The notes below the pieces were generated by a model. It was not told where the DNA came from. It did no database searches and saw nothing but the letters and a program-made list of their open reading frames with translations. The position numbers and the translations under genes are program-made. A stretch of DNA of 64,000 nucleotides from Hydrogenothermus marinus (lineage in GTDB: Bacteria; Aquificota; Aquificia; Aquificales; Hydrogenothermaceae): positions 62,001-126,000 of the forward strand of contig NZ_REFO01000013.1 in assembly GCF_003688665.1 (NCBI RefSeq), given 5' to 3'. Positions 6,701-10,405 of the stretch are shown one piece after another (the first letter of the stretch is position 1; every line of letters starts with the position of its first letter).

Positions 6701-8833
6701 ATGATATATAAATATTTATTAGAAGAAGCAAAGAAAGTTTTAGATAAAAACTGGACAGGTAGTTATACAGTCCCTTCTATACATCTATATCCTCACCAAT
6801 GGAATTGGGATAGTGCCTTTATTGCTATAGGATATTCAAGATACGATACAGATAGAGCTATTCAAGAGTTAGTTTCTCTTTTTGAAGGTCAATGGAAAAA
6901 TGGAATGCTTCCTCATATAATTTTTAATGAAAAAAATCTTGGTAAATATTTTCCAGAACCAGATTTTTGGCAAACTGAAAATTTAGAAATATCTCCAGAT
7001 AATAAATTAACATCAGGAATAACACAGCCTCCTATCCACGCATTTGCTGTATTGAAAATTTATGAAAATGCAAAAGATAAAGAAAAAGTTAAAGAGTTTA
7101 TAAAATGGATATATCCAAAACTTATTAAAATGCATAAGTATTTCTATCTTGAAAGAAATCCTATGGACAATGGACTTGTTTATATAAGACATCCTTGGGA
7201 ATCAGGAATGGATAACTCTCCAATGTGGGATGTTATTCTTGAAAGAATAGATATAAATAAAATAAAAGTGCCTAAATTTGAAAGAAAAGATAATAAAATA
7301 ATAGATTCTTCCCAAAGACCAAAAGATGAAGATTATATAAGATATATATATCTTGTAAACTTATTTAAAAAATTAGATTATGATGAAGAAAAGATATATA
7401 AAGAATGTCCATTTTTAGTTATAGATCCTTTATTTAATTCAATACTTAATGCATCAAATCTTGCTTTAATAGAACTTGCTAAAATTATTGGTGAAGATTA
7501 TGGACAGCAACAAGAATGGTATATTCAAACTTCAAGGGCAATTAGAGATTTATTATTTGATAAAGACAAAAAAATATTTTTTCCATTTGATTTAGTAGAA
7601 AATAAATTAATAAAAGTAGAAACAGCTGCAGGATTTATGCCATTATTTTCAAAATCTGCATCTGATTATCAAGCAAAGCTTATTTATCAATATCTTAATT
7701 CTCATAATTTTTGTAAACTTTATGATAATACATGTTTTGCAGTTCCTAATTTTGATAAAACAAAGGAAGGTTTTAACAGTAAAAATTACTGGAGAGGTCC
7801 TGTTTGGATAAATATTAATTATCTTTTATACCATGGATTAAAAAATTATGATTTTGAAGAGTATGCTTACCATGTTGAAAAAGATATTTTAGAACTTCCA
7901 CTTAGATTTGGATTTTATGAATATTATGATTCTGAAACAGGTATTGGTTATGGAACAAAGGACTTTTCATGGACAGCAGCTTTATTTATAGATATGGTTT
8001 ATGAGTATGAAAAAAGAAAAAACAAAAGATTTATTTCTAAAAATATTGAAAATAAAATTTTTAATAATTCTAAAAAAGATAAATTTTTAGATACAAAATT
8101 AGCTTTACAAAAATTTAATATATTTTTTGAAAAACTTATAAAAAACAATGTTGAAGATTTTGTTGTTAATTACAAAAAAATAAGTATATCTCCAGAATAC
8201 AAAATACTAAAAGAAACAGTTAAGAATTTTCAAAAATTTAATTTTAATTATTTAGATACGGAAAATAAGAAAAAAGCTTTTTGGATAAATATTTACAACT
8301 TTATGGTTATAGATTTTATTATCTCTTTAGATATTAAAGAATCAGTTATGGAAATAGATAAATTTTTTGAAAGACTACATTATAAAATTGGAGATTATAT
8401 CCTATCCTTAGATGATATTCTTTATGGAATTTTAAAATCAAACTCTGAAAATCCATTTACAGGAAAGAAACAGTTTATAGATAAAAATCCATTAATTCTC
8501 AAGGAAAAAGATAATAGAGTAATATTTACCATAACTCAAGGAGCAAGAAGTTCACCTGCTTTAAGTTTTTATAATTATACAGATTTAGATAAACAGATTG
8601 ATAATGCAACAAAAAGATTCATAAGAGGTTCAGAAATATTAATAGTTCCTGAAAAAAATAGCATTTTTATATCTAAACTATTTGACTGGCATAAAGATAT
8701 ATTTAGGAAAAATAATGATAAAATAAAGTTTATAGCCAAATATATAAATGATGAGAAAAAAAGAGATTATTTAATAGAAAAAAAAGACATAAATATAAAC
8801 TACTTTTATTTTAACTGGGCATTAAATGATTAA
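6701..8833 (+). CDS. GH63-like glycoside hydrolase fused to a DUF547 domain
   Basis: The 710-aa protein has two parts. Residues about 20-440 look like an (alpha/alpha)6 glycosidase of the GH63 mannosylglycerate/glucosylglycerate hydrolase type: HQWNWDSAFIAIG (32-44), GITQPPIHAF (106-115), WESGMDNSPMWD (166-177), NYWRGPVWININY (362-374), FYEYYDSETG (405-414) and FSWTAA (422-427). By family analogy D171 and E407 would be the acid and base. Residues about 470-710 resemble DUF547: AFWINIYNFMVID (526-538), LSLDDILYGIL, ITQGARSSPAL (611-621) and SKLFDWHKDIF. Position 618 is Ser where the family usually has Cys in an SCP motif. The start abuts the purM stop with no clear ribosome site, so expression probably depends on coupling. 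There is no signal peptide. Substrate is unknown; a compatible-solute or storage glucoside is a guess. Confidence 0.7.
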   Translation: MIYKYLLEEAKKVLDKNWTGSYTVPSIHLYPHQWNWDSAFIAIGYSRYDTDRAIQELVSLFEGQWKNGMLPHIIFNEKNLGKYFPEPDFWQTENLEISPDNKLTSGITQPPIHAFAVLKIYENAKDKEKVKEFIKWIYPKLIKMHKYFYLERNPMDNGLVYIRHPWESGMDNSPMWDVILERIDINKIKVPKFERKDNKIIDSSQRPKDEDYIRYIYLVNLFKKLDYDEEKIYKECPFLVIDPLFNSILNASNLALIELAKIIGEDYGQQQEWYIQTSRAIRDLLFDKDKKIFFPFDLVENKLIKVETAAGFMPLFSKSASDYQAKLIYQYLNSHNFCKLYDNTCFAVPNFDKTKEGFNSKNYWRGPVWININYLLYHGLKNYDFEEYAYHVEKDILELPLRFGFYEYYDSETGIGYGTKDFSWTAALFIDMVYEYEKRKNKRFISKNIENKIFNNSKKDKFLDTKLALQKFNIFFEKLIKNNVEDFVVNYKKISISPEYKILKETVKNFQKFNFNYLDTENKKKAFWINIYNFMVIDFIISLDIKESVMEIDKFFERLHYKIGDYILSLDDILYGILKSNSENPFTGKKQFIDKNPLILKEKDNRVIFTITQGARSSPALSFYNYTDLDKQIDNATKRFIRGSEILIVPEKNSIFISKLFDWHKDIFRKNNDKIKFIAKYINDEKKRDYLIEKKDININYFYFNWALND

Positions 8834-9502: not shown

Positions 9503-10405
9503 ATGGAAAGCTTTGACCAGATAAAAAAAGATTTTGATTTTACACCTAAGGATGAAGAAAGATTAAAACAATTAAAACCAGTTATGGAAAAATATCTTGA
9601 TGAATATATAAATGAGCTTTATGATTTTATTTTTAGACTTCCAAAAGCAAAACAATACTTAAAAAACGAAGAAATTATAAACAGACATAAGAAAAAATTA
9701 AAAGAATGGTATCTTGATTTATTTAGTGGTGTTTATGATGAGAGATACTTTGAAAAGTTACATAAAGTTGGGGAAGTTCATGATAGTTTAGGAGTGCCAA
9801 CTCATTATATAAATGCTTCTTTTAACTTTACTAGAAGATTTTTTATAAGAAAAATAAATGAAGAATTTGGCTATTCAAGAGAAAGGAATCTTTATGTTGA
9901 ATCTGTAGGAAAAATCTTAGATATAAATTTAGATGTTTTTACAAAATCGTATATAGAAGAAGAAATTTCCAGATATATGGAATTTTCCAGACTTGAAAAA
10001 AAATTAATAAAAGCAGCAAAAAGATTCAAAGACTTTTTAGATTTAGCATTACTTGTTTCTTTAATATTTATTTCCTTTTTTGTTATTGGATTATTAGGGT
10101 TTGATGTTTATAAATTTGTAATTGGTGAAGTTCATTTTGAAGAGGGAATTATTGCAACTCTTGGTAGTTTATTAATTTTATGGGCAGTTGTTGAACTTAT
10201 GGGAGAAGAGATAAAGCATTTAAAAGGTGGAGGTTTTGCTCTTACTGCATTCTTAGGTGTTGCTCTTGCAGCAGTAATAAGAAAAATACTTATTGCCTCT
10301 CTTTCACCAGAAGATACAAAAAAGCTTTTAGCTTATGGAATAATTTTACTTATAATAGGTATTGTTTATTATTTATTAAATAAAAATGTGAAAAAAGGAG
10401 ATTAA
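9503..10405 (+). CDS. Globin-coupled sensor domain fused to a PsiE-like membrane domain
   Basis: Residues about 10-165 resemble the globin-coupled sensor/protoglobin fold. KEWYLDLFSGVYDERYFEKL is followed by HKVGEVHDSLGVPTHYINA, in which H93 sits where the haem-ligating proximal His is found in this family. A charged helix (about 160-180) leads to a membrane part with four hydrophobic segments (about 183-203, 214-232, 245-263, 276-293). That part resembles PsiE, including the charged ELMGEEIKHLKGG loop and the AAVIRKILIASL motif. The globin part would sit in the cytoplasm. Globin sensors bind O2, NO or CO; PsiE-domain function is unknown. The protein lacks any kinase, cyclase or chemotaxis output domain, so the membrane part is presumably the output. 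It lies between purN and skp with 1-3 base gaps. Confidence 0.75.
   Translation: MESFDQIKKDFDFTPKDEERLKQLKPVMEKYLDEYINELYDFIFRLPKAKQYLKNEEIINRHKKKLKEWYLDLFSGVYDERYFEKLHKVGEVHDSLGVPTHYINASFNFTRRFFIRKINEEFGYSRERNLYVESVGKILDINLDVFTKSYIEEEISRYMEFSRLEKKLIKAAKRFKDFLDLALLVSLIFISFFVIGLLGFDVYKFVIGEVHFEEGIIATLGSLLILWAVVELMGEEIKHLKGGGFALTAFLGVALAAVIRKILIASLSPEDTKKLLAYGIILLIIGIVYYLLNKNVKKGD

Follow-up and report, generated by a model that had tools for sequence, protein, structure and literature searches.

What does a protein do in which a globin-like part, of a kind otherwise coupled to signalling domains, is joined to a PsiE membrane domain? This question is raised by an open frame in the stretch of Hydrogenothermus marinus DNA analyzed here (64,000 nucleotides, referred to as the window), in which the following features were assigned:

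9503..10405, + strand: globin-PsiE fusion gene, 300 amino acids, stop included; open frame, with PF11563 and PF06146 above their cut-offs and 65 relatives with alignments longer than 250 residues
9506..9964, + strand: globin (Protoglobin-family) domain, residues 2-154, from PF11563 and the match of the model to 2W31
9620..9622, + strand: Tyr40, putative distal Tyr at B10, placed by its offset from Tyr(61)B10 in the M. acetivorans protoglobin
9686..9688, + strand: His62, candidate distal haem His, at HemAT residue 92 in an ungapped alignment
9779..9781, + strand: His93, candidate proximal haem ligand (F8)
9965..10042, + strand: linker, residues 155-180, partly modelled as the start of a helix continuing into the first membrane helix (163-207)
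10043..10384, + strand: PsiE membrane domain, residues 181-294, from PF06146, the hydrophobic windows and four predicted membrane helices in the models
10193..10195, + strand: Glu231, second membrane helix
10280..10282, + strand: Arg260, third membrane helix

The stop codon of purN and the ATG of the fusion gene are separated by 3 bases, and the stop codon of the fusion gene and the ATG of ompH by 1 base (both flanking genes named from Pfam). The fusion is therefore probably translated from a message shared with purN and ompH. Further upstream, between purM and purN, a 710-amino-acid frame at window positions 6701-8833 (+) contains an MGH1-like glycoside hydrolase domain (30-425) and DUF547 (521-641).

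An earlier note on this DNA had described a globin-like part with His93 as candidate proximal ligand, followed by four membrane segments resembling PsiE, and no known signalling output domain. This description was borne out by domain searches and structure prediction. Using Pfam, residues 2-154 were assigned to Protoglobin (PF11563, 107.3 bits, cut-off 25, E 1e-30) and residues 181-294 to PsiE (PF06146, 70.5 bits, cut-off 23.9, E 1.8e-19); two further families listed for the 300-amino-acid frame both scored under their cut-offs, and Pfam and NCBIfam profiles detected no signalling output domain of a known kind in the frame. The NCBIfam PsiE equivalogs NF002763 and NF002764 gave 24.4 bits versus a cut-off of 138 and 19.6 bits versus 207, respectively. 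Thus, the PsiE part of the fusion belongs to the wider PsiE family.

An AlphaFold2 model was calculated from a 66-row alignment (mean pLDDT 86.9, pTM 0.56; polypeptide only, without haem). The modelled globin was superimposed by Foldseek on 2W31, the globin of a Geobacter sulfurreducens globin-coupled sensor, with a TMt of 0.93 and an rmsd of 1.6. 2W31 was also the best match by VIA (Z 22.8, rmsd 1.4, 151 residues), next to AfGcHK (5OHE) and HemAT (1OR4), both with Z 21.7. As modelled, the domain has the fold of the globin-coupled sensors.

Conservation was assessed in the same alignment, termed A3, which consists of 65 fusions and the window protein, and in a set of 45 Aquificota frames, which includes the window's own frame as well as fragments and shares many genomes with A3. 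Members of A3 were picked for alignment over more than 250 residues, which favours intact globins. The two search patterns behind the 65 loci exclude residues 62, 93, 231 and 260; residues 97-105 and 235-242 are contained in them, and part of the conservation seen there thus follows from the search itself. In ungapped alignments, His93 falls on residue 93 of 2W31 and on residue 123 of HemAT, and it is kept in 66 of 66 rows of A3 and in 41 of the 45 Aquificota frames. For His62 the corresponding numbers are 66 of 66 and 36 of 45, and position 40 is Tyr in 65 of the 66 rows and Phe in one. In the accessible text of PMC3680402 the distal residues of the M. acetivorans protoglobin are given as Val(E7)89, Phe(E11)93 and Tyr(61)B10. 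By offset to this protein, rather than by residue-by-residue alignment, His62 would be E7, Leu66 E11 and Tyr40 B10. The globin is probably haem-binding and belongs to a type that serves in the sensing of oxygen or nitric oxide.

The membrane part comprises four hydrophobic stretches and is modelled as a four-helix bundle (helices 163-207, 212-240, 247-265 and 269-298). The mean pLDDT in the linker region is 58 for residues 151-160, 68 for 161-170 and 76 for 171-180, and because of these values neither the continuity of helix 163-207 nor the placing of the globin with respect to the membrane part is reliable. The ratio of K/R to D/E is 8:4 in the linker (counted over residues 155-182) and 3:1 in the tail; loops 1, 2 and 3 have 1:3, 2:0 and 0:2, respectively. 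Provided that the positive-inside rule for membrane-protein topology applies, this balance would place both the N and the C terminus inside. Glu231 is present in all 66 rows of A3 and in all 45 Aquificota frames, and Arg260 in all 66 rows and in 44 of the 45 frames, the remaining one having a gap at this position; E. coli PsiE has both residues as well. Overall, conservation is higher in PsiE than in the globin (mean majority-residue share 0.70 versus 0.63, mean distance 0.41 versus 0.49). As far as can be judged from the alignments, this conservation and the residues common to the fusion and E. coli PsiE exceed the needs of an anchor. Globin and PsiE distances correlate (r 0.91), which shared descent alone would also give.

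The earlier note had further proposed a survey of how often this pairing occurs, and it proved to be frequent. When 136 genomes of the phylum were searched with the protein, 103 gave a match to at least one of its halves, and among the matches listed at least 76 of the 136 genomes contain both parts in one frame. This number is composed of 60 genomes in which one match extends from residue 15 or earlier to residue 236 or later and of 16 of family f5, in which both halves lie in one frame of 343-356 amino acids and residue 125 is followed by an insertion of up to about 34 alignment columns. PsiE in any form was found in 124 of the 136 genomes. A named scan yielded 77 loci, of which 65 are fusions aligned over more than 250 residues; according to their record labels 23 belong to Aquificota, 22 to Nitrospinota, 3 to Nitrospirota, 15 to Campylobacterota and 1 to Gammaproteobacteria, and 1 carries no phylum (L086 and L089 stem from the same genome). 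Since the scan requires exact short patterns, its counts are lower bounds. Twelve loci were left out: the frame is broken in L104 and L119, L117, L124 and L128 are partial, L120, L123 and L125-L127 encode the globin with another C-terminus (three of these five were scanned, with EAL in all three, L120, L126 and L127), and L121 and L122 encode PsiE without a globin (L121 scanned). Stand-alone relatives of the fusion's PsiE are L042 and L121. Nine stretches of viral contigs matched a pattern and none of them encoded a relative; plasmids gave four weak matches on the globin side (22-26% identity, 50-63% of the query), none covering 80%. The pairing of globin and PsiE is widespread over several phyla and not peculiar to the window's genome.

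The genome from which the window comes gave one Protoglobin match and two PsiE matches. The second PsiE protein is a stand-alone form of 165 amino acids (G000:C10:71217-71546; L050:2643-3140), the frame of which overlaps its neighbours on both sides, upstream one with LysM-like repeats and downstream an Mfd-like one, both named by reading only.

Some fusions have lost haem residues. In the Aquificota set His93 is missing in L037, L041, L047 and L049, and L040 keeps His93 and has part of the pocket deleted. The PsiE part of all five keeps Glu231, and also Arg260 where the frame extends that far. Furthermore, five of six f5 members are without His62 and have Leu (L045, L039, L048, L051) or Ile (L038) instead. 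As read from these sequences, PsiE has outlived the haem site in the lineages of L037, L041, L047, L049 and L040 and of the f5 members with Leu62. Such variants, in which PsiE is kept and haem residues are lost, are ready-made natural controls.

The gene neighbourhoods of all 65 loci were analyzed by clustering and blastp seeds over non-overlapping frames, by which some genes may be missed, and clusters were named by profile from one or a few members each. By our reading, 16 of the 42 loci outside Aquificota have a neighbour of the NO or N-oxide type. A truncated haemoglobin, globin, RIC or NnrS lies beside L068, L070, L076, L077, L082-L086, L089, L091 and L109; L076 and L109 were added by the whole-genome searches for PF01152 and RIC described below. 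L090 and L106 have a NorQ/CbbQ-type ATPase with a VWA protein, L106 in addition a globin and L090 a COX3-like frame; the names NorQ, NorD and NorE are our reading of Pfam CbbQ_C, VWA and COX3, and none of the NCBIfam nor equivalogs was found for the two L106 members run. L098 and L105 have NapA as a neighbour, with the NapA equivalog model passed by L105, the member run. L100, with DUF2249-like and c12 frames only, and L103, with a siroheme-decarboxylase-type protein, were kept outside the 16, and in the remaining 26 of the 42 loci no NO or N-oxide-type neighbour was found within the locus stretch. The c12 frames (L098:681-1922, L100:4360-5601, L105:4277-5548; 414-424 amino acids, membrane-like by eye) lie upstream of globin-PsiE and adjoin a DUF2249-like frame, which is under its cut-off; the L105 member gave no family match when scanned. 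Another frame, of about 1984 amino acids (cluster c28), is common to L073, L074 and L092, where it lies next to globin-PsiE on the - strand and runs to the locus edge. Rrf2 neighbours were not named NsrR, because the two scanned members reached 47 and 40 bits versus a cut-off of 182.

As a control, whole genomes were examined for 19 Nitrospinota-type genomes (18 so titled; that of L076 is titled Nitrospirae) with 21 full-length copies of the fusion. These genomes contain 44 PF01152 matches and 13 RIC matches, 12 of the latter above the cut-off. Of the 21 copies, 9 have a PF01152 truncated haemoglobin no more than 4 kb away, where 0.14 would be expected from the density of these matches (Poisson 5e-14); for RIC/YtfE at the same distance, 4 copies were observed and 0.04 expected (Poisson 1e-7). 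In the expected counts each copy is treated as independent despite the relatedness of the genomes, and two of the nine truncated haemoglobin cases lie in one genome (G144); because the P values ignore kinship, we read them as 'not random' and attach no weight to the exponents. The neighbourhood with NO-type genes in Nitrospinota is non-random. For NnrS, 20 genomes from mixed phyla were searched, and 16 of them gave a total of 20 matches, two of which adjoin a fusion copy. We also observed a class of weak-scoring truncated haemoglobins in Nitrospinota (L083:5012-5548 and the like): 13 of the PF01152 matches have an E above 1e-8, and 9 of these lie within 4 kb of globin-PsiE.

None of the 23 Aquificota loci was matched by blastp with seeds for truncated haemoglobin, globin, NorQ, NorD, NorE, NnrS and NapA. 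COX1-family oxidase genes adjoin three of the 23 Aquificota copies, L062 (scanned) and L063 and L116 (by cluster). For the L062 oxidase ccoN was the best NCBIfam match and scored below its cut-off; Pfam gives COX1. The window's fusion gene itself is set among housekeeping genes, without the NO-gene link found elsewhere. Its genome contains a single COX1-family gene and gave no match in a search for RIC, which matched 4 of 14 control genomes; a search for NnrS gave none either, and as it also matched no control genome, absence is not proved. Because of these results, O2 or redox is a better guess than NO for the signal in this organism. Gas sensing with PsiE as the effector, as put forward in the earlier note, has indirect support: the invariant pocket histidines of A3 and the NO-type neighbours outside Aquificota speak for it, whereas the link to NO was not seen in the organism's own genome.

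Upstream of the fusion genes, an FNR-type promoter motif with at most one mismatch was found in 9 of 65 stretches, versus a mean of 3.6 (sd 1.7, maximum 10, 200 draws) at random places within the same loci, coding DNA included. The enrichment over the 65 loci is weak, and the best site of the window has three mismatches. Exact TTGAY-N4-RTCAA sites occur in L103, L111 and L113, 64-66 bases upstream of the aligned start.

With modest confidence, we favour the reading that the fusion is a membrane-anchored globin-coupled sensor, which would respond through its haem to O2 and/or NO and use PsiE as its output. The N-terminal cytoplasmic globin would bind haem via the proximal His93, with Tyr40 and His62 in the distal pocket, and would change its shape on binding of O2 and/or NO or on a redox change of the iron. 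It would dimerize through the globin, as do other globin-coupled sensors. The signal would then pass from the last globin helix through the linker and enter the PsiE bundle by way of its first membrane helix; as the output, this bundle would act in or on the cytoplasmic membrane. PsiE is more likely a regulated membrane module, either for partner binding or for the passage of ions or small solutes, than a mere anchor.

The truncated haemoglobin, single-domain globin, RIC, NnrS, NorQ/CbbQ-type and nap genes adjoining the fusion outside Aquificota would also suit a membrane-tethered haem enzyme, in which the globin removes NO by dioxygenase or reductase chemistry or scavenges O2, PsiE anchors it or aids electron supply, and no signalling takes place. 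The distal Tyr and His of the fusion globin fit this alternative as well, since both occur in haem enzymes too. We nevertheless regard it as unlikely, although it is the strongest of the rivals: Pfam and NCBIfam find no reductase domain in the frame, anchoring leaves the invariant Glu231 and Arg260 unexplained, some lineages without haem residues retain PsiE, and RIC and NnrS are unmatched in the window's genome.

Alternatively, His62 and His93 could both ligate the iron at rest, so that the protein would be a bis-histidyl sensor of the redox state and not of a gas. That both histidines are kept throughout A3 is consistent with this idea, as is the description of 2W31, the nearest solved relative, which in the title of a reference cited in the accessible parts of PMC4686822 and PMC3680402 is called bis-histidyl, with His at E11 and F8. 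However, the His of 2W31 is residue 66 and its residue 62 is a Leu, whereas the window has His62 and Leu66, which puts the two histidines one helical turn apart; and His62 is replaced by Leu (four) or Ile (one) in five of six f5 members. We consider a bis-histidyl redox sensor improbable.

Within the favoured reading of a haem sensor with PsiE as output, PsiE might be a small pore or transporter gated by haem, O2 or NO binding to the globin opening or closing an oligomer of four-helix units with Glu231 and Arg260 in their core. We regard this as quite doubtful. By Foldseek, the PsiE model gave nothing at E <= 0.001 against the PDB (best E 0.31). By VIA the best match, at Z 10.6, was the Orai channel 4HKR (rmsd 3.0, 123 residues), tied with NINJ1, VTC and BAR domains, and because such a tie may be the chance level of helical bundles, we derive no channel claim from the fold searches. 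The PsiE profile gave one match against the PDB sequences (E 0.16), which is not meaningful. If true, a haem-gated PsiE would be a bacterial gas-gated channel built from one kind of polypeptide. Least probable of all is a globin serving as a haem-free interaction domain, with PsiE alone being of importance, for which the relatives without the proximal His, the pocket deletion in L040 and the stand-alone PsiE relatives L042 and L121 could be cited, and against which both histidines are kept in the window protein and all 65 of its A3 relatives, though the selection of A3 favours intact globins.

PsiE is thus present in most genomes of the phylum, yet the literature, in the accessible parts of the two papers, gives only its regulation, E. 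coli psiE being controlled by PhoB and cAMP-CRP (PMC4415409), or homology with no function given (PMC10128005). A search of the literature retrieved no paper combining 'globin-coupled sensor' and 'PsiE'. As the natural fusion to a globin provides PsiE with an input that can be switched in the test tube, the activity of PsiE should be findable by comparing the liganded with the unliganded protein. The globin-PsiE pair, common to several phyla, therefore offers a concrete route to the function of PsiE.

Among known systems, the closest is the Geobacter sulfurreducens globin-coupled sensor 2W31, which is also the nearest solved structure to the window's globin. Both align without gaps over residues 4-158 with 35% identity, and the likeness extends across the REEE stretch with which the globin ends. 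Since we take the C-terminal part of the 2W31 parent protein to be a transmembrane domain, this protein may have the same architecture as the fusion; if that part is PsiE, the architecture would already be known under another name. PsiE of E. coli K-12 (psiE, b4030) shares Glu231, Phe250 and Arg260 with the window's domain at 20% overall identity and lacks a globin. Conversely, the Campylobacterota protoglobin-EAL proteins of L120, L126 and L127 have a related globin (32-41% identity) and an EAL domain of the c-di-GMP phosphodiesterase type where the window has PsiE, and thus a globin of this kind is used as an input module. The globin-coupled sensors HemAT, AfGcHK, DosC and BpeGReg have the same globin fold as the window's protein; in HemAT the place of the proximal His agrees with His93, and His62 of the window corresponds to a Leu. 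In contrast to the membrane domain found here, these sensors have soluble output domains of the chemotaxis, kinase or diguanylate cyclase type. A globin-coupled sensor with a conserved membrane domain as its output would extend this class.
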